From Luteolibacter rhizosphaerae (GTDB lineage Bacteria; Verrucomicrobiota; Verrucomicrobiia; Verrucomicrobiales; Akkermansiaceae), in NCBI RefSeq assembly GCF_025950095.1, contig NZ_JAPDDR010000003.1, forward strand, positions 434,001-498,000: a DNA stretch of 64,000 bases, in the 5' to 3' direction. Shown one piece after another: positions 1-61,715 of this stretch. Numbering within the stretch: the stretch's first letter is position 1; each line of letters starts with the position of its first letter. Under the pieces are notes generated by a model. The model ran no database searches. It worked only from the letters and a program-made list of their open reading frames with translations, and was not told the origin of the DNA. The position numbers and the translations under genes are program-made.

Positions 1-1363
1 GCACCGCCAGTCCCTCCTTCGCCAGCTCGCGGATGATCCGGTGGATCTCGCTCTTTGCGCCCACATCCACACCCTGCGTCGGCTCGTCCAGGATCAGCAA
101 CTTCGGCTTCGTCGCCAGCCAGCGGGAAACGCTCACCTTCTGCTGGTTCCCGCCGCTCAGGCTACCACCCGGAGCCTCCGGCCCATAGGCCTTGATTCCC
201 AGGTCCGCGATGAACTTCTTCGCCAGATCCGTCTCGGCCTTCCCGCGCAGCCAGCTCCCGCGGAACAGCACCGGATGCACCGCCATCGAAATATTGTGCG
301 CGATTGGCATCTCCAGAATCACCCCGTGACGCCGCCGGTCCTCCGGCACATACGCGATCCCTTGCGCAATCGCCTCCCGCGGCGAACCGATCCTCACCGG
401 CCTGCCCTCTAACAAAATCTCCCCGCCATCCGCCGGCGTGATCCCGAAGAGGATCCGCGCCAGCTCCGTGCGCCCGGCGCCCACCAGCCCCGCCATCCCC
501 ACGATCTCTCCCGCCCGCACCTCCAGCGACACATCCCGCACCCCGCTCTCCTTGCAGCAAAGCTCCTTCACCGACAGCACCGTCGCTCCCGGCTCGCCCT
601 CCGCAGGCGGATACAGCGTCGCCACCTCGCGACCGACCATCAGCTTGATCATCGCCGCCTCGTTCAAATCCTTCACCGCGTGCGTGCCCACGCTCTCGCC
701 ATCCCGCAGCACCGTCACCCGGTCCGCCAGCGCGAAGATCTCTTCCAGCCGGTGCGAAATATACACCACGCCCACACCGCTCGCCCGCAGGTCCCTCACC
801 ACGCCGAAGAGCAAGTGCTGCTCCTTCTGGGTCAGGGATGCCGTCGGCTCGTCCATGATCACGATCTTCGCACCCGATCCCAGCGCGCACGCGATCTCCA
901 CCAGTTGCTGCTCCGGCATCGAGAGCTCGCGCACCTCCTTGTCCGGCGGAATCTCCGCACCCACCCGCTTCAGCAGCTCCAGCGCCTTCCGCCGCTGCTC
1001 GCCCCTGCTCACGATTGAGAAGGCCTTCGGCTTCTTCAGCCGCAGCCCGATGTTCTCCGCCACGCTCAGATCCGGAAACAGCGCCGGCTGCTGATAGATA
1101 CACGCGATCCCCAGCGCCCGCGCATGGGCAGGCGTCAATGCGGACAGCGTCTCCTCGCCCACCTTCAGCACGCCCTCATCCGGCGCATGCGCCCCGGTGA
1201 TCACTTTGATCAGCGTCGATTTACCCGCGCCGTTCTCGCCCAGTAGGGCGTGTACCTCTCCCTCCAAAAGGTCGAACGAAACACCCTTCAGTGCGCGCAC
1301 GGCACCGAAGGACTTCCGGACATCGGAAAGTTGGAGCAGGGTTTTCAAGGCGCTTGGGTTCAC
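1..1363 (-). CDS. Sugar ABC transporter ATP-binding protein (RbsA/RhaT type), 3'-truncated by window edge
   Basis: Energises uptake of a monosaccharide at the inner membrane. It has two fused ABC domains: the first has Walker A GENGAGKST near residue 40 and Walker B VIMDEPTAS; the second has the degenerate P-loop GLVGAGRTE usual in the RbsA family, the signature LSGGNQQ and Walker B LILDEPTQGVDVG. About 454 of the usual ~500 codons are present and the gene runs off the left edge. I chose the GTG at 1363 because upstream in-frame codons reach a stop quickly and the ABC fold begins about 10 residues later. It lies 28 bp downstream of an L-rhamnose isomerase gene on the same strand, so rhamnose is the likely substrate; that substrate is inferred from context. 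Confidence 0.9.
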   Translation of the reverse strand, partial: MNPSALKTLLQLSDVRKSFGAVRALKGVSFDLLEGEVHALLGENGAGKSTLIKVITGAHAPDEGVLKVGEETLSALTPAHARALGIACIYQQPALFPDLSVAENIGLRLKKPKAFSIVSRGEQRRKALELLKRVGAEIPPDKEVRELSMPEQQLVEIACALGSGAKIVIMDEPTASLTQKEQHLLFGVVRDLRASGVGVVYISHRLEEIFALADRVTVLRDGESVGTHAVKDLNEAAMIKLMVGREVATLYPPAEGEPGATVLSVKELCCKESGVRDVSLEVRAGEIVGMAGLVGAGRTELARILFGITPADGGEILLEGRPVRIGSPREAIAQGIAYVPEDRRRHGVILEMPIAHNISMAVHPVLFRGSWLRGKAETDLAKKFIADLGIKAYGPEAPGGSLSGGNQQKVSVSRWLATKPKLLILDEPTQGVDVGAKSEIHRIIRELAKEGLAV

Positions 1364-6299: not shown

Positions 6300-6472
6300 G
6301 TCGGCAGGTTGTCCTGCTGCTGCTCTTGGCCACCATCCCAGGTACGCCCGTGAGCCTTGTTCTCCATCCCGATCCCGAGCTGGCGAAAATCGCGCCCGAT
6401 CCCGATGGCGGTGTTGCAGGAAGTCAGTGAAGAGACGGCGACGGCGGCCGCCAGCAGAAGCAGCTTCTTCAT
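6293..6472 (-). CDS. Entericidin A/B-like small lipoprotein
   Basis: 59-residue lipoprotein: a signal segment MKKLLLLAAAV, lipobox LTSC, then the short conserved core CNTAIGIGRDFRQLG-IGMEN that resembles the EcnA/EcnB family pattern CNT-x-G-x-G-x-D. These are small membrane lipoproteins, in enterobacteria linked to programmed lysis in stationary phase; that role is not implied here. I start at the ATG giving MKKLLL rather than the in-frame codon 12 residues upstream. Only one copy is present, so there is no toxin/antidote pair. It converges with and overlaps the preceding lipoprotein gene by 7 bp. Confidence 0.72.
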   Translation of the reverse strand: MKKLLLLAAAVAVSSLTSCNTAIGIGRDFRQLGIGMENKAHGRTWDGGQEQQQDNLPTY

Positions 6473-6512
6473 GGCGAAATTTTGTAATTCAGAATCAGAA
6501 CGATGCAAATGC

Positions 6513-7646
6513 TTAATTTTCCTTAAGTTCTTTTCGCAGATTCACGATTTCTTCTCGGATCTCGAAAATCGAATCGCGCAGCGCTTCCAAGGCCCGGCCG
6601 TGATCCGGGTCCTCCGCGACCGCCACCAGTTCGCCGCAGGCCGCCAGCGCATCGTTCTGCCAGCACAGGCAACGCTTCAGCATTGCCAGCACGTAGCCCG
6701 TCTCGCGCTCGTAGTCGCCGTTCAGGGCTCCCGCCAGCTTTCCGGCCACCTGCATCAGCGCGGTGTTCAGGGTGATCGCCGCCGCGTGCTCGCCTGCGGC
6801 CCGGGTCAGGTCGTAGCTGCGCAGCACCAGATCCTGTGCCTTCTCCTGCAGCGGGTGCTGCCGGAACTCCGCCTCCGGGTCCCAGCCCTCATCTTCGCTT
6901 TCCTCCGGCTGCCAGCCCGGTTCTGGTGGGGTGGGGGACTCTTTCTCCTGCGCCATCGATTCCAGCAGGCCGTCCCAACCCATCGCGAAGGCCTCTTTCC
7001 GCTCCGCATCCGGATCATCCAGATACTTCTCCAGCACCTCCTGATACGCATCCGCCAGCCGGTCGGATTCCTTCAGTCGCTCCTCCCACTGGAATTCGTC
7101 CTCTTCCTCCAGGCTCTCGGAGCTCCGGTCCGCCGGCTCGATCCGGCTTACCAGCTTGTTCATGAAGTCCCTCATCGCCTGCATGTTAGCCAGCTTCTGG
7201 GCTTCCTCCTCGTCCTCATCCATTTCCCATTGCCGCTCGGACAGCTCGAGTTCGAAGTCGCAGGTCTCGATCACCACCCGCCCGTTCGCCTCGCTGAACC
7301 ACTCCAGATAGAGCGTGTTCTTCCAGCAGAAGGGGATCTTCTGCCGCGCCGCATACATTGCCGCGAACTCCTCGTCGGATACGGTCGGTACCTTGTTCTT
7401 CCGGGAGGCCGTCATGTCGCCCACCACTCCTTGCTGGAGCGGGAAGAGATCCATGTTTGCCTGTGGCTTCGGCGTCGGGTTGCGGAACTTCAAACGCGTC
7501 CCCGCGAGGTCGCGCCAGCAGTCACCGGTCAGATCGAGTGCCACCGGTTGCTCGCGACCGAGGATCCACAGCAGCCCCGTGGTTTTGCCTAGGACCGTGT
7601 TGTCGATCTCGCCGCGCTCCAGCGCTTCGTCGATTCGCCATGCCAC
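6513..7646 (-). CDS. Conserved hypothetical acidic protein
   Basis: 377 residues, cytoplasmic (no signal or membrane segment). The N-terminus (WRIDEALERGEIDN, then GLLWILGREQPVALDLTGDCWRD) is a compact beta-rich region; the middle is very acidic with runs such as EMDEDEEE and EEEDEF; the C-terminal ~110 residues are helical with two cysteines (CLCWQNDALAACGEL) and end in a coiled-coil-like RDSIFEIREEIVNLRK. I do not recognise a characterised family. Codon use matches its neighbours, so the gene is real. It is divergent from rseP across a 116 bp spacer. Confidence 0.7.
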   Translation of the reverse strand: MAWRIDEALERGEIDNTVLGKTTGLLWILGREQPVALDLTGDCWRDLAGTRLKFRNPTPKPQANMDLFPLQQGVVGDMTASRKNKVPTVSDEEFAAMYAARQKIPFCWKNTLYLEWFSEANGRVVIETCDFELELSERQWEMDEDEEEAQKLANMQAMRDFMNKLVSRIEPADRSSESLEEEDEFQWEERLKESDRLADAYQEVLEKYLDDPDAERKEAFAMGWDGLLESMAQEKESPTPPEPGWQPEESEDEGWDPEAEFRQHPLQEKAQDLVLRSYDLTRAAGEHAAAITLNTALMQVAGKLAGALNGDYERETGYVLAMLKRCLCWQNDALAACGELVAVAEDPDHGRALEALRDSIFEIREEIVNLRKELKEN

Positions 7647-55850: not shown

Positions 55851-55874
55851 GACTTCGGCCCGCACCCTCATCGC

Positions 55875-55902
55875 TTGCATCACGCAGGCATCCGCCTCAA
55901 CT
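55875..55902 (+). promoter_or_regulatory. Putative promoter of array gene A
   Basis: CGC-TTGCAT and TCAACT separated by 16 bp (55875-55880, 55897-55902), 10 nt before the ATG. The same layout precedes array genes B and C. Confidence 0.45.
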
Positions 55903-55912
55903 TCGGACCATC

Positions 55913-57334
55913 ATGGCTCGGATCATCTGGCTTACTTGGCTCGCGTTCGTGCTGTGTGCGCAGGCCGATGTGACCGTGGTTTGGAAGGGTCCCGTGGAGT
56001 CCCTCTCACCCGCATTTCCTGAGGGCAAGAATCTCCCGAAACTCGAAACGGAGCCTGTGCGATCACCACTATTCAAGCCGGGTGATTCCTTACGGGATAT
56101 GTCGGCATGGGTTTCAAAGCGAAGCGGTTTGATCGCTCTCTCGCAAGAGGGAGCTGCCGCGGCACAGAAACCCGCAAACGATCCGCCTCGGTGGCCGGGG
56201 GATTGGGTGGTCTGGAAAGAGAGTTCCGGCATGATTGCGGCGAGTGGGTCATACAATGACATCTTCCTCGTCGAGGAGGCCTTGGGCTTCAGCAAGATGC
56301 CCACCGTGATCCGGACCCGGCTTGAACTCGTGTCCGCCGACAAGACGAAAAACCGGAGCGCCGTTCTTACGGGCAGATCGGGAGAAGAGGCCACCTTGAA
56401 GGTGGAGGGGCTTGAAGCGAATGTGACGGGTGAGGATTGGAGTTTTTCTTTAGGTGCGGTCGATCTTCTCCTGACCGTCCAGTGGGCCGATGCGGGTTCG
56501 AGCAAACCATGGGGAGTTTCTACGGCTCTTACCTTGGAAGAGGGCAAGCGCACCTTGGTGGCGGGGCAGGGCACCGGTCAGGATCGCTGGCAGCTTTTTG
56601 CCACGGCCTCGATTGAAATGACCAATGGCTTGCCGCTTCGGGAGGCGCGTTGGACTGAGAAGGAGGGGCGTCTGGAGCCTTGGCCTCGCGTCGCTGCGAA
56701 TGACAATCAGATCCGGAAACCCATCGGGAGTGATCTTTCCATCACCATGTATCGCTTTGCGAATCCGTGGAGCCGTCTCCGCAACAGCCCTGAGCCCTTT
56801 GCGCCGCTTCCTCAGGTAGTCGTACCGGATGCTCTTTCGAACTGGATGCGTGGTCCCGTCGCCGATGTGGGCGCCATCCTTTTCGAGGGCTTGGCGAATC
56901 CCGCTTGGTTTGCTGGTTTCGACTCCCGTAGCGGTCGGATCTTGGTGCTTGCGGATGCAGAGGCTCAAGATCGGTGCGAGTCGCGATTGAACACTGGCGT
57001 CGTGGACCCAATCGTGGGTGAGAATCTTTGGGTCGGATCCAATCCAAGCTCTGGGGCGTGGTTGCTCGCTTGCCGGGCGCGTGAGGAGGCCCGGATCTAC
57101 GCCCCGGAGGTCGAAGCGGTGCCCGCATTTGAAGTCTCCATCTCCGAGTTGGGAGACCATTCATACGATCTCCAGTTCGCTGCCGCGCGCATTCCACTGG
57201 AAGGTGCCGCTGCTAGGATCTCCGGCGAAGGACTTTTCAAGCTCGTTGCCCCCGACTTCGTGACACGCAAGGACTTCATGGCCGAGCAAGGCGACGGGAT
57301 GATCACCATCTTTCTCCGGCGATCTCCTCCTTGA
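55913..57334 (+). CDS. Secreted paralog A of a four-gene tandem family, function unknown
   Basis: 473 residues with a signal peptide (about 1-19, ARIIWLTWLAFVLCAQA-D). Body pattern shared with B-D: P-x-x-S-x-(F)-x-x-G-D-x-L, then W-V-V-W near residue 100, followed by a short strand and D-(I/L)-x-x-(V/L)-(E/Q) helix, RTRLELVS, GRSGEEA, and a second half with FDSRSGRILVLADAEAQDRCE and a closing beta region. The two V-V-W/A-L-A-D strand-helix segments resemble the N-domains of secretin-like proteins. No catalytic motif found. Confidence 0.75.
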   Translation: MARIIWLTWLAFVLCAQADVTVVWKGPVESLSPAFPEGKNLPKLETEPVRSPLFKPGDSLRDMSAWVSKRSGLIALSQEGAAAAQKPANDPPRWPGDWVVWKESSGMIAASGSYNDIFLVEEALGFSKMPTVIRTRLELVSADKTKNRSAVLTGRSGEEATLKVEGLEANVTGEDWSFSLGAVDLLLTVQWADAGSSKPWGVSTALTLEEGKRTLVAGQGTGQDRWQLFATASIEMTNGLPLREARWTEKEGRLEPWPRVAANDNQIRKPIGSDLSITMYRFANPWSRLRNSPEPFAPLPQVVVPDALSNWMRGPVADVGAILFEGLANPAWFAGFDSRSGRILVLADAEAQDRCESRLNTGVVDPIVGENLWVGSNPSSGAWLLACRAREEARIYAPEVEAVPAFEVSISELGDHSYDLQFAAARIPLEGAAARISGEGLFKLVAPDFVTRKDFMAEQGDGMITIFLRRSPP

Positions 57335-57348
57335 AGCGCCCTCATCGC

Positions 57349-57376
57349 TTGCATCGCTCAGGTATCCGACTCAACT
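57349..57376 (+). promoter_or_regulatory. Putative promoter of array gene B
   Basis: TTGCAT and TCAACT with 16 bp spacer (57349-57354, 57371-57376), 7 nt before the ATG; nearly identical to the block before gene A. Confidence 0.45.
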
Positions 57377-57383
57377 TCGGACC

Positions 57384-58790
57384 ATGGCCCGGATCATCTG
57401 TCTCGCTTGCCTTGCGCTCGTGCTGTGTGCGCAGGCCGTTACCGTGGGGTGGAAGGTCCCTTTTCATAGTTCCCTCCCGGAGAGGTTCGCTGGCTTAGGG
57501 GCTACCAGGATGGAAAATGCTCCGGCAAAGTCTGTGTTCTTTGCAGAGGGGGATGAACTCTGGGAGATCTCAAAGACGATTCAGTGGAGCAGCGAGGCGG
57601 ATCCATTCGAGGAAGAGACATCGGAGACTTCTAAGGCCAAGCCATGGGGCGGCGATTGGGTGGTCTGGAATGCACGTTCCCGGACGGTGATCGGCAGTGG
57701 ATCATGGGACGATATCCGGCGTTTGGAACAGAGCCTGAGCATCAACTCCATTCCCACGCTCCAGAGGACGAGGTTTGAGTTCGTGGCCACCGCTGGCGAA
57801 GCCGCCGAGGCATCGAGACGGAGCGAATTGGTTCTAACGAGTCGGGACTCGGAGGAAGCCAGCGCAGAGGTCGAGGGCGTGAGGGCTAAGACCACATCGC
57901 AAAGCGACATGCGTCATGCCCTAAGTCATAGCGCCATCTTGTTCTTTTGGCCGGGAAAGGAGAAGGGAGTCCGATGGGAAGTTAGTTCAAGGTCCACCGT
58001 TGCAGACGGCGTCCGCACGCGAATTGCGAAGGGTCGGGATCATGACGAGAACTGGGAGCTCTACGCGACCATCTCCACCGAGACGGCGGATGGAACACCT
58101 CTCCACGGAGAACGCTGGATCGAAGCTCCATCGGGGCCGGTTCTCTGGGCTCATTATCCCATTGCCGGGTCCTATCGGGAAAGCTTCGAAGGCGATCTGA
58201 TCCTGAAGGTATACCCGGTGCGGGATGACTTCATGAACAAGTTGGGTGGGGGGCTTCCGGGGCAGGCAGTATTTGTCGAGGGATCCTCAGCTGTGAACGG
58301 GGCTCGCCGGTGGTATCTCGACGTCCGCCCGCTGCTTGAGCAGAACGGGGTTAAGCTCGTTCATCCTGAGGCATGGATCGGCTTTGATCCCTCCACCTCA
58401 AGCGTGGTCGCACTTGCCGACCGCGAAAACCAGGATCTGCTGGAAGGCATTCTCGACATGGGAAGATCACCGGTCCGCGCAGTTTGGCTAGAGACGAATC
58501 CCGAGTCCGGCGGATGGGGAATTCTGAGCCGTTCGGGAGAGAAGGCTTCGATTTCCAGATCCAATCAGGGCGAGACCGTTTTGGCATGCGATATCGAGCC
58601 TACCATCGGCGGCAATGAGCAGGTCATCGACCTGCGGTATCAATTCGATGTGATGAACGGGCAGAAGCAGGTCGGGCGCATGCAATCCGCGACCACGCTC
58701 TTCCCCGACCGACCCCAAGTCGTCGGTAAGGTCTTCTCCTCGGACGGCAAGGAGATCGAGGTCGTCATGACCGCGAGCATCTCGCCTTGA
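57384..58790 (+). CDS. Secreted paralog B of the tandem family
   Basis: 468 residues; signal peptide ARIICLACLALVLCAQA. Shares with its neighbours: S-V-F-F-A-E-G-D-E-L-W-E-I-S, GDWVVWNARSRTVIGSGSWDD, RTRFEFVATAGE, WELYATISTETADGTPL, WIGFDPSTSSVVALADRENQDLLEGIL, GGWGILSRSGEKASI and a C-terminal strand-rich end EVVMTASISP. It has its own predicted promoter 49 bp after gene A. Function unknown. Confidence 0.75.
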   Translation: MARIICLACLALVLCAQAVTVGWKVPFHSSLPERFAGLGATRMENAPAKSVFFAEGDELWEISKTIQWSSEADPFEEETSETSKAKPWGGDWVVWNARSRTVIGSGSWDDIRRLEQSLSINSIPTLQRTRFEFVATAGEAAEASRRSELVLTSRDSEEASAEVEGVRAKTTSQSDMRHALSHSAILFFWPGKEKGVRWEVSSRSTVADGVRTRIAKGRDHDENWELYATISTETADGTPLHGERWIEAPSGPVLWAHYPIAGSYRESFEGDLILKVYPVRDDFMNKLGGGLPGQAVFVEGSSAVNGARRWYLDVRPLLEQNGVKLVHPEAWIGFDPSTSSVVALADRENQDLLEGILDMGRSPVRAVWLETNPESGGWGILSRSGEKASISRSNQGETVLACDIEPTIGGNEQVIDLRYQFDVMNGQKQVGRMQSATTLFPDRPQVVGKVFSSDGKEIEVVMTASISP

Positions 58791-58807
58791 AGTCGCGGCT
58801 TCGCCGC

Positions 58808-58836
58808 TTGCATGGAGCGGGCATCTAGCCTCAACT
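58808..58836 (+). promoter_or_regulatory. Putative promoter of array gene C
   Basis: TTGCAT and TCAACT with 17 bp spacer (58808-58813, 58831-58836), 10 nt before the ATG. Confidence 0.45.
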
Positions 58837-58846
58837 TCGGACCATC

Positions 58847-60253
58847 ATGGCCCGGATCATCTGTCTTGCTTGGCTTGCGCTCGCCCTTTGGGCGCAGGCT
58901 TCCGTGACGGCGGGATGGAAGGTGCCAAGTTCGCAAGTGGTCTACTCCTTGGGGGATGATCCCAATGTGCCAAAGCTGGAGAATCCTCCGGGCGAATCCG
59001 CCTTCTTCCAATCCGGCGACGAGCTTTGGGATCTCTCGCAGATCGTGTCTCACCGGATCTTCATGGAAGGCGGTGAGCTGGGTGTGATTCCCGATTGGCC
59101 AGGCGAATGGGTGGTGTGGAATGCCCGTTCGGGAATGGTGGTGGCACGGGGTTCGGAGAGCGATCTGTTACTCGTCCAAGGAGCTCTGGAGCTTCCCCAA
59201 TTAGAGTATGAGCTCCGCGCGAAGCTGGAGTTGGTCGCTGGGGGGGAGAAGATCGCGCGCTCGATCTCGCAGATCATCCAGAGCGGAATCGAGGCCTCGG
59301 CAAAGTCGGGAGATCTTGAGCTGAAGTTGTTGCCGACTTCATCGTCAAGCAGTAGCTGGATCGATCTCACCATCGATACGAAGTGGACTGAAAACGGTGT
59401 TTCATGGGAGTACACCTCAACTCTCCTTATCCCCGATGGCAGGAGAGTGCGGATTGCCTCTCACGCCTCCAATGGCGAACAATGGGAGCTATTCCTTACC
59501 ATCACGCAAGAACTCCCCGACGGAACAAAGCGATCAGAGACTCGTTGTAGAGAGGCCTCCGGAGGCTTGGAGAATTGGCCTTTGCCAGCCGGATGGAAGG
59601 AATCGGCAAGGGAGCCTTTCCATCATGGCCTGCAACTCGGCGTGCTGCAAATCGACGACTGGGAGGTTCCTGCGGATTTGATTGAGAAATCGTTACAGGG
59701 CACGAATCCGGATGGCATCGCCAAGATTGCGGCACCGGCCGAGCTGGCGAGATGGATCAAGGGGGATTGCCATGACCTAACTCCGTTCTTCCGGGAGCAG
59801 GGGGTGCCGCTGGACCGGACCGGAACCAAAGTGATCTTCGATCCCGGGTGGCAGCGCGTTATCGTGTTGGGGAGTGAGGAGGACCTCGAATTGGTCGAGT
59901 TTCTATTCGGAATCGACCGGAACATCTCCCAAGATGACACGGGAAGAGACTGTCTCTGGATCGAGCTCTCCCAGTCGGAGAAGATTTGGGGTCTGGCCTG
60001 CCGATCCGGCTCGACCGCGAAGCTATCCGGGAAAGGCGGGACGGAGGGAAACTCTCTTGAGCTTGAGCCCATCCTCGGGGGCAGCGGCAGGATCGCCGGG
60101 TTGGCCTATTGCTTGGGCTTGTCCAGCGGGTCCAGCGAGCTGCTTTCCAAAACGATCCTGATCCTCGATGTCCCTCAGAACCTCGGCGGCTTCATGTTGC
60201 CGGGCCAAGCGGAGGAGGAGATTGAGGTAACGCTGAAGACGCTCTTTCCCTGA
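58847..60253 (+). CDS. Secreted paralog C of the tandem family
   Basis: 468 residues; signal peptide ARIICLAWLALALWAQA. Conserved blocks: SAFFQSGDELWDLS, GEWVVWNARSGMVVARGSESDLLLVQGAL, RAKLELVAGGEKIARS, WELFLTITQELPDGT, VIFDPGWQRVIVLGSEEDLELVEFL, WGLACRSGSTAKLSG, ending EEIEVTLKTLFP. Gene D starts 16 bp later, so C and D are probably co-transcribed. Function unknown. Confidence 0.75.
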   Translation: MARIICLAWLALALWAQASVTAGWKVPSSQVVYSLGDDPNVPKLENPPGESAFFQSGDELWDLSQIVSHRIFMEGGELGVIPDWPGEWVVWNARSGMVVARGSESDLLLVQGALELPQLEYELRAKLELVAGGEKIARSISQIIQSGIEASAKSGDLELKLLPTSSSSSSWIDLTIDTKWTENGVSWEYTSTLLIPDGRRVRIASHASNGEQWELFLTITQELPDGTKRSETRCREASGGLENWPLPAGWKESAREPFHHGLQLGVLQIDDWEVPADLIEKSLQGTNPDGIAKIAAPAELARWIKGDCHDLTPFFREQGVPLDRTGTKVIFDPGWQRVIVLGSEEDLELVEFLFGIDRNISQDDTGRDCLWIELSQSEKIWGLACRSGSTAKLSGKGGTEGNSLELEPILGGSGRIAGLAYCLGLSSGSSELLSKTILILDVPQNLGGFMLPGQAEEEIEVTLKTLFP

Positions 60254-60269
60254 TGCTGGCCACAGTCCC

Positions 60270-61715
60270 ATGAAAATCTTCATCATGTTCTTGCTGCTCC
60301 TGTTAACCTCCGGGGTAACGCGGGCCGCCGTGACTGTTGCTTGGAAAGTCCCCGTCGAATCGCAGGCCGCTGATTTCCGCTCGGACGAAAGGTATCGGAA
60401 GTTGGACCAGCCTCCTGCGGCGTCCGCCTTCTTCCAAGCGGGTGACGAGCTATGGGATGTCTCGAAGGCGATCTCGTGGCCGCGAGGCTTCAGGCCGACG
60501 AAGAGGGAGAAGAAAGAGGAGGAGGGAAATGATCCCTTTGCCGCGAGGCGCTCGGGGGATTGGGATTGGAATGGGGAGCCCGATGGGAAATGGGATGGCG
60601 AGTGGGTGGTGTGGAATGCCCGCTCGCGGATGTTCATCGCCCGCGGATCGTGGGAGGATGTTCGGCAGATCGAGGCGGGGCTGAAGTTCAACGGGCGCCT
60701 TGAGATATTTCGCACCAAGCTGGAGCTAGTGGAGGCTGGCCAGCCTTCCCGCTCGATCTCATTGGTGTCGCGATCCGGTGAGAAATCGATCATGGAGGTC
60801 GGTGGCTTCAAGCTGGAGCTGGAAGCTGACGGGAGAGAGCAGATCCCCGAAAATTACGCCAAGCTCGTGGTCAAGTGGCCCTCGGGTAAGAAAGGCGAGA
60901 CTTGGGAGCTAGCCACCGCATTGACCCTGAAGGATGCCAAGCCACTCCGCGTGGCGGGCCACGGAAGCGGCGCGGAGGAATGGGAGCTCTTTGCTTCCAC
61001 CGAACGGGAGTGGCTCGATGGCACGCCCGTCTCCCCAGGACGGTGGATTGAGGAGAAAGGAGCGGTCACCCTTTGGTCCGTGCCACAGTATCATCAAGAC
61101 GAGGCGCGCGACCTCGGGGAGGGTTATAAGATGGCGCTCTTCTACATTGGTAAGGACACGCCCTTGAAGATGGTCGGACACGGGTCACAGACCCCTTCCA
61201 CGGCAGTCGAAGTCCCTGAGAAAGCTGCCGGACTTCTCCGCGGCAGCGTCATGGATTTGCGCCCCCATCTGGCACTAAATGGAATCCGGCTGGATGAGGC
61301 ACGGGAGTTTGCAGGCTTCGATCCCGTGAGCGGGCATCTGCTCGTCATCGCCCGTGACCGCTGGGTGCAGGACATCGAAGGGCTCCTCTCCGGCGGAGGC
61401 GATCCGGGTGTGTCCCACTGGGTGAAGACCGGCCCCGAAGCCGGAGCTTGGCGGCTCAGCTCGCGATCCGGTGAGAAGGCAACGCTTGCCCGGAAGAAGA
61501 ACGGCGAAGTCGAGTCGCTCTTCGAGACCGAGCTTAGCTCGGGCGGGAACGGGAAGATCTTCGACCTCAGCTACCGGCTCCAGCCCGGGCCCGGGCAATT
61601 GTTGCAGTCGAAGGGGACCTTCCTGATAGACACGCCACGGGAAGCGGGAAGCTTCACCGCCGCCGAAGGGCAAGAGGTGAAGGTGATCCTCACCGCCGGG
61701 AGCGAGCCGCGGTGA
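60270..61715 (+). CDS. Secreted paralog D of the tandem family
   Basis: 481 residues; a different, longer signal peptide (MKIFIMFLLLLLTSGVTRAA). Retains SAFFQAGDELWDVSKAISW, GEWVVWNARSRMFIARGSWEDVRQIE, RTKLELVEAGQPSRS, WELFASTEREWLDGTPV, FAGFDPVSGHLLVIARDRWVQDIEGLL, WRLSSRSGEKATLARK and EVKVILTAGSEP. Contains an acidic/basic insert (KREKKEEEG) around residue 75. Lacks the near-identical promoter/leader block of A-C, consistent with being transcribed with C. Function unknown. Confidence 0.75.
   Translation: MKIFIMFLLLLLTSGVTRAAVTVAWKVPVESQAADFRSDERYRKLDQPPAASAFFQAGDELWDVSKAISWPRGFRPTKREKKEEEGNDPFAARRSGDWDWNGEPDGKWDGEWVVWNARSRMFIARGSWEDVRQIEAGLKFNGRLEIFRTKLELVEAGQPSRSISLVSRSGEKSIMEVGGFKLELEADGREQIPENYAKLVVKWPSGKKGETWELATALTLKDAKPLRVAGHGSGAEEWELFASTEREWLDGTPVSPGRWIEEKGAVTLWSVPQYHQDEARDLGEGYKMALFYIGKDTPLKMVGHGSQTPSTAVEVPEKAAGLLRGSVMDLRPHLALNGIRLDEAREFAGFDPVSGHLLVIARDRWVQDIEGLLSGGGDPGVSHWVKTGPEAGAWRLSSRSGEKATLARKKNGEVESLFETELSSGGNGKIFDLSYRLQPGPGQLLQSKGTFLIDTPREAGSFTAAEGQEVKVILTAGSEPR

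Follow-up and report, generated by a model that had tools for sequence, protein, structure and literature searches.

Secretins are large gated outer-membrane pores of 12–16 subunits. In the 64,000-nucleotide stretch of Luteolibacter rhizosphaerae DNA analysed here (the window), four consecutive forward-strand genes, P1 to P4, encode relatives of these pores in which an N3-type domain followed by a beta-domain core occurs twice in one chain. We regard both the kinship of P1–P4 with secretins and this two-unit architecture as firm. With fair but not full confidence, we further read the proteins as exported tandem duplicates of the minimal secretin unit of the Amuc_1098/PilQ lineage, which would act as a soluble scaffold in the cell envelope, the wall being the likeliest field of partners. 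This reading builds on the duplication, the kinship, the predicted fold, the shortened intervals and the purifying selection among homologues, all of which were computed.

Four tandem genes with two secretin-like units each

P1 (55913–57334, 473 aa) starts with a signal peptide followed by two N3/secretin-core halves, the C-half beginning at 56711. The C-half lies at 58170–58787 in P2 (57384–58790, 468 aa) and begins at 59603 in P3 (58847–60253, 468 aa) and at 61101 in P4 (60270–61715, 481 aa). The genes are separated by gaps of 49, 56 and 16 nt, with 248 nt between P4 and the next gene, and the first ATG of P1 lies 38 nt downstream of position 55875, given as the start in the initial annotation. 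That annotation had described four consecutive paralogs sharing one order of sequence blocks; the open reading frames (ORFs) are indeed present and the blocks align in that order, with P2, P3 and P4 being 31, 29 and 31% identical to P1 over the whole length and 58 alignment columns invariant. P1 departs from the block consensus, having LFKPGDSLRD and GDWVVWKESS where P2–P4 have FFxxGDELW and G(D/E)WVVWNARS. All four N-termini resemble signal peptides ending in AxA, and residues 2–17 form a helix in the P4 model. A search of the own genome with P4 matched P1, P2 and P3 at E values of 2.5e-48, 9.1e-69 and 1.1e-46, whereas the two matches that follow (E 0.13 and 1.8) contain internal stops. Homologues occur in other genomes and their nonsynonymous substitution rates (dN, 0.32–0.44) are far below the synonymous ones (dS, 1.35–2.5, partly saturated) in four homologue pairs, none of them window genes; both observations point to real genes under purifying selection. 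Promoter and terminator scans of the region gave results close to chance (1 against 1.4 expected, 9 against 6.8 expected).

The profile tests used a 39-row family alignment, built from stop-to-stop frames and trimmed at the column that holds P4 residue 20; its incomplete rows include a 401-residue frame cut by the end of its locus and one row (L088) that looks frameshifted. The 29 secretins compared with it were chosen from frames already matched by the family profile (L092, L094, L098 and L109 are among those left out), and L037 alone among the chosen was tested as Amuc_1098_fam. The N-half and the C-half of the family are homologous (hhalign 98.8%, E 1.3e-16, score 110.1 against a maximum of 15.8 in 60 column shuffles), and the C-half matches the secretin N-domain of the 29 frames (97.7%, E 1.4e-12, score 96.4 against a maximum of 21.0 in 60 shuffles); the remaining half-profile score was 30.6, with a shuffle maximum of 20.0, and reversed alignments as a control scored 16.6–19.6. 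The likeness continues into the beta domain, as the C-half matches the LEIEPT hairpin of secretins (71%, E 3.6e-5) and its beta core alone matches them at E 4.7e-5 (score 32.5 against a maximum of 17.1 in 60 shuffles), in an alignment that is colinear over the RSGEK, LEIEPT and TTLxxG strands. For the beta core of the N-half alone, the score was 26.2 against a maximum of 16.2 in 60 shuffles. The earliest family profile had already matched a secretin (L021) at E 9.8e-4, and the family aligned with three secretins (96.2%, E 2.1e-9) over the domain that lies between a weak STN (N0) match and the barrel. Because the half-versus-half and half-versus-secretin scores exceed those of the shuffles, each protein is described as an N3–beta-core unit present twice.

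The own genome has four secretins above cut-off, among them the reference L037, an Amuc_1098_fam member at 1191.8 bits (cut-off 750) whose gene adjoins a PilM gene. The family shares with it, in the same order, an N-domain with a VPPDFL...DPF lead-in and an LxVxNTxxNLDLIE pattern, the RSGEKA strand, the LEIEPTIGGxDxxIDLR hairpin and the TTALTIxDG and VTA strands. L037 also has TPR matches and a weak STN (N0) match, neither of which was found by Pfam on P1–P4; these, moreover, come without the Gate 1 stretch and the lip motif, at about half the length and with the whole unit duplicated. In Akkermansia muciniphila, PilQ/Amuc_1098 is described as an abundant outer-membrane protein (PMC4960237). 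Residues 269–360 of P2 weakly match the Amuc_1098_fam model (NF042912; 14 bits, E 0.0092), over its N-domain only, while P1, P3 and P4 give no match and all four stay below the curated cut-off of 750; residues 317–351 of P3 give a weak match to Pfam Secretin_N (E 0.044), under its cut-off. A profile search of PDB sequences returned just three TRIM71 matches, at E 0.66 to 0.87. The relation to secretin N-domains proposed initially can thus be narrowed, from the profiles and the weak P2 match, to the N3-type, pre-barrel domain of a lineage present in the same genome.

Other secretin-related ORFs were seen as well. On the minus strand of L144 (5169–12071; G000:C4, about 138409–139119), a 2301-aa ORF with no Pfam match at E 0.001 contains a stretch 71% identical to residues 260–497 of the PilQ-type secretin L037, and open frames of about 2,290–2,480 codons with an L037-like stretch recur in other genomes. 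Separately, a lipoprotein-like ORF of about 215 aa (L040 893–1549, minus strand, the same as L146 at about 6393–7037, minus strand) looks like a lone beta-domain fragment (PF00263 E 0.037, under cut-off) and would be a further reduced secretin encoded by this genome, distinct from the family.

Predicted folds and probable loss of pore elements

Template-free structure prediction agrees with the profiles. Full-length P4 was modelled with AlphaFold2 from nine sequences (pLDDT 77.2, pTM 0.67) and the C-half of P2 was predicted alone (pLDDT 82.2, pTM 0.53). In structural comparison the top ten rows for P4 were all secretin entries, with Z 7.8 to 10.7 and the next row at Z 6.2; the core of its N-half (residues 143–248) superposes on pIV (7OFH) with Z 10.7 and a root-mean-square deviation (rmsd) of 2.0 Å over 104 residues, which places this beta-domain core at 60696–61022 on the forward strand (residues 143–251). 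For the P2 C-half the top 26 rows were secretin entries (Z 8.5–12.3), followed at Z 4.8 by a KH domain, the first row of another kind. The initial annotation had suggested comparison with both secretin and KH-like folds: secretin kinship held, and KH-like similarity appeared only at that lower level. Foldseek gave the P2 C-half a best E of 1.3e-5 and 23 matches at E 0.001, the top 30 rows being secretin entries. Its predicted core (fragment residues 103–206, forward strand 58476–58787), which is also matched by profile, superposes on RcpA with Z 11.1 and rmsd 2.7 Å over 99 residues and on PulD with rmsd 2.9 Å over 101 residues. The preceding N3-type domain (fragment residues about 7–98, forward strand 58188–58463) is indicated by the profile, by NCBIfam and by structural rows over residues 7–206; rows spanning N3 and core include pIV 109–403 and XcpQ 242–571, ranges that presumably start with N3. 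The proteins had initially been suggested to lack a secretin barrel, a view we have to revise: by profile and structure both halves carry the beta-domain core, from which putative gate and lip stretches have been removed.

What is missing can be read from the spacing between conserved strands, counted by alignment columns (a count by regular expression worked on 10 of the 29 secretins). Median inter-strand spacings in secretins, C-half and N-half, respectively, were 141, 15 and 22, then 66, 19 and 14, then 67, 33 and 33, and finally 53, 24 and 24 residues, with non-overlapping ranges, the incomplete family rows yielding interval minima of 0–9. The RSG-to-LEIEP interval alone measures 59–74 residues (median 66) in the 29 secretins, against 2–30 (median 19) in the C-half and 14–25 (median 14) in the N-half over the 39 family rows. 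Likewise, IREF.YP occurs in 25 of the 29 secretins and the lip motif G[DE]xPxxGxxF in 27, and neither occurs in any of the 39 family rows. In pIV, a pair of hinge glycines at the inner barrel is described as flanking Gate 1, and every subunit contributes four inner and four outer strands (PMC8563730); going by those hinge glycines, we infer that the RSG-to-LEIEP interval corresponds to Gate 1. The amphipathic helix lip of secretins is thought to be key to membrane insertion (PMC7545093). As the putative Gate 1 and lip stretches are gone, gating and membrane insertion would be lost too; we are rather confident that P1–P4 have lost the pore function, and by sequence they are probably soluble proteins and not pores.

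Known reduced secretins differ from this arrangement. pIV has the same minimal unit of N3 and a double-walled beta domain, but forms a 15-mer pore with two gates (PMC8563730), whereas P1–P4 are without the gate and lip stretches and have the unit doubled. Mitochondrial GspD is likewise a secretin cut down to part of the C-domain; it keeps the amphipathic helical loop and forms pores (PMC8134430), whereas the P1–P4 family is without that segment and keeps N3. Among the open-access titles and abstracts listed, none described such duplicated, gateless secretin-core proteins, nor truncated or tandem secretins like them; the papers listed on Luteolibacter dealt mostly with ecology, and the one listed for TsaP was unrelated.

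Distribution, descent and gene neighbourhood

A 22-row family alignment, searched against 18 congeneric genomes, revealed full-length members in 12, with 4, 3, 3, 2 and 2 copies in five of them and one copy in seven; a thirteenth genome has a partial member, located at the end of a contig. The idea that homologues would always stand in tandem is rejected by the seven single-copy genomes. In the bacterial family as a whole (260 genomes, with at most 6 candidates scored in each), the matches listed include long ones from genera g8, g10 and g13 as well; one match in genus g11 (G219) covers model positions 221–467, and those in genus g3 are weak (best E 5.3e-8) and restricted to the N-domain. In one genome of genus g8 (G024), six family members stand in a row (L132 5951–15119, minus strand), touching or nearly so from end to start, and copy number across genomes ranges from 0 to 6. 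Among the matches listed at E 1e-6 for 141 order-level and 240 phylum-level genomes, sets that overlap with those of the genus and family, no near full-length match fell outside the family; the others were mostly to the N-domain region and nearly all in long, secretin-sized frames, with a few in shorter ones (577 codons in G037). Since at most 6 or 11 candidates were scored per genome, presence is a lower bound. In named genomes of all phyla, a first scan confirmed none of 67 stretches, and a broader alignment yielded four loci from 33 stretches, in Haloferula sp. BvORR071, Luteolibacter marinus, a Verrucomicrobiia metagenome-assembled genome (MAG) and an Akkermansiaceae MAG. Near full-length members are thus confined, among the matches listed, to one bacterial family of Luteolibacter and Haloferula relatives. 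The suggested restriction to Verrucomicrobiota agrees with these results insofar as the four named loci, found by a scan that needs close relatives, all belong to that phylum and the genome-set search stayed inside it.

P1–P4 do not form one clade in the family tree. P1 and P3 group with two copies of G015, a Haloferula genome (0.92), with P3 nearest to one of these (0.87), while P2 groups with copies of G006, G008, G010 and G011 (0.85) and P4 with two G009 copies (0.76). Nevertheless, P1, P2 and P3 share closely similar forward-strand 5' leaders (55868–55966, 57339–57437 and 58802–58900), each comprising 45 nt upstream of the gene and 18 signal-peptide codons, which P4 is without. Their identity is 76–90% over the 45 upstream nucleotides and 81–87% over the 54 nt of the signal peptide, against 45–48% for the DNA of the mature proteins. 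Old paralogs with young leaders make gene conversion of the 5' end of P1–P3 likely, judging from these sequence comparisons.

Downstream of P4, on the same strand, lies a glycosyl-hydrolase-like gene of the GHL10 type (PF02638; 61964–63400, Pfam E 1e-52), a position that it also takes in some of the relatives. It is single-copy at E 1e-10 in all 28 genomes tested, each picked for having a family match, and lies directly downstream of a family gene and on its strand in 11 of them (G000, G002, G009, G010, G011, G012, G013, G015, G017, G171 and G172); one gene intervenes in G133, where it encodes a DUF2339 protein, and in G179. Over the 24 gene contexts read, GHL10 was present in 12 and an M29 peptidase in 6, and shared descent accounts for part of the synteny with both. 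E. coli also has a PF02638 match, which we take to be DigH (YddW); on that assumption DigH is kin of the GHL10 neighbour, not of P1–P4. E. coli DigH degrades denuded peptidoglycan glycans (PMC12288456). By analogy a cell-wall role of the family is suggested, and we offer the link to the wall and GHL10 as a tentative lead. At three loci (L123 in G006, L124 in G008 and L125, one of the G011 loci), the family gene stands beside two aconitase genes instead of GHL10, the aconitase neighbours having been identified directly in L123 and by similarity at the other two loci; there the gene must have been moved or copied.

Weighing the possible roles

We propose that a minimal secretin unit of the Amuc_1098/PilQ-type lineage, N3-type plus beta domain, was duplicated within one exported chain. 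Relative to that lineage, the chain would have lost the TPR and N0 domains, most of the segment following N3, the putative Gate 1 and some of the beta hairpins. It would also be without the outer-membrane lip and the amphipathic segment that belongs to it, and could then form no gated membrane pore. Instead it would serve in soluble form in the periplasm, scaffolding or binding other components through the N3 and beta-edge surfaces where secretin subunits pair; the role of a periplasmic assembly or binding factor, as initially put forward, is plausible. Its likeliest field of partners would be the cell wall, through the glycosidase encoded directly downstream, with PilQ as the main alternative partner.

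Several observations weigh against this proposal. By profile alone the N-half matches secretins weakly (8%, E 0.0042), albeit above all 60 shuffles; its secretin identity therefore draws on its homology with the C-half and on structure. None of the Pfam or NCBIfam models reaches its cut-off on P1–P4, and PF00263 matches neither these four nor 22 family members at E 1. Foldseek with whole P4 gave nothing at E 0.001, the best match being a di-domain ARO/CYC protein (E 0.014) and secretin entries appearing at ranks 14, 22 and 23; this prompted the separate modelling of a C-half. For structural rows that cover both N3 and core, the rmsd is about 9–11 Å, in contrast to 2.7–2.9 Å for single-domain rows, so that the two domains would be differently oriented or flexible; the low pTM of the P2 C-half (0.53) counts here as well. 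Five of the 18 congeneric genomes have secretin-type partial matches only, without a family member. Finally, GHL10 lies elsewhere in 15 of the 28 genomes, and synteny is no proof of a joint function with it.

An accessory role in type IV pili, in which the proteins bind PilQ of the Amuc_1098 type through N3 or the beta edge and form a collar on it in the periplasm, cap it or help to assemble it, would suit their closest relatives found, Amuc_1098-lineage secretins, one of them encoded beside pilM. According to its title, PDB entry 6ve2 holds tetradecameric PilQ with a TsaP heptamer, so two-for-one collars exist, and a protein with two cores could match such symmetry. We nonetheless consider this role unlikely: the PilQ gene of the own genome is on contig C2 and the family cluster on C3, the identified neighbours include no pilus gene (most neighbours in the 24 contexts being unannotated), and full-length members are present in 12 of the 18 congeneric genomes, with a partial one in a further genome, whereas a search with the L037 secretin matched 29 of 29 relatives. 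The cores might also stand for two adjacent protomers, with a gateless ring or barrel closed by seven or eight copies or by the paralogs mixed together, given that the core keeps beta strands of the secretin wall and that, for the P4 model, several porin-like and OspA rows (Z about 4–6) extend across the two halves (143–481), a hint of adjacent or continuous sheets. Such cross-half rows, however, lie in a Z range common for structural comparison, the membrane-insertion lip motif is missing in 39 of 39 rows, and a mix of paralogs is not needed, as seven of the 12 congeneric genomes have one gene; we think a retained ring or barrel quite improbable. Scarcely better placed is the bolder idea of a soluble, possibly ring-forming envelope machine, in which one gateless chain mimics two subunits and seven or eight copies, or a paralog mix, ring PilQ or a cell-wall hydrolase.

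A similarly low probability attaches to secretin-derived ligand binders of the surface or periplasm, diversifying by duplication and unrelated to pili or wall. The paralogs do differ at about 70% of residues, three share leaders, and copy number varies as widely as described, but dN is well under dS in the tested pairs and the GHL10 link would go unaccounted for. That a generic strand-helix (KH-like) module came to resemble secretins by convergence, with the KH row and the weak curated-model matches in its favour, is very improbable indeed: secretin entries alone fill the top 26 structural rows, and we reject it because the matches to N3 and core, at E 1.4e-12 and 4.7e-5, follow the secretin order.

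We believe that the duplicated minimal unit is of interest beyond the window. In this family the secretin beta domain itself, and not only the N-domains, has persisted in two copies per chain with gate and lip lost. Being small and probably soluble, the proteins lend themselves to studying how secretin protomers pair. For the relatives of Luteolibacter and Haloferula, an unannotated exported family gains a structural identity and a putative cell-wall neighbour. The paired cores without gate and membrane-inserting parts suggest that a pore-forming protein has been re-used as a soluble protein of the cell envelope.

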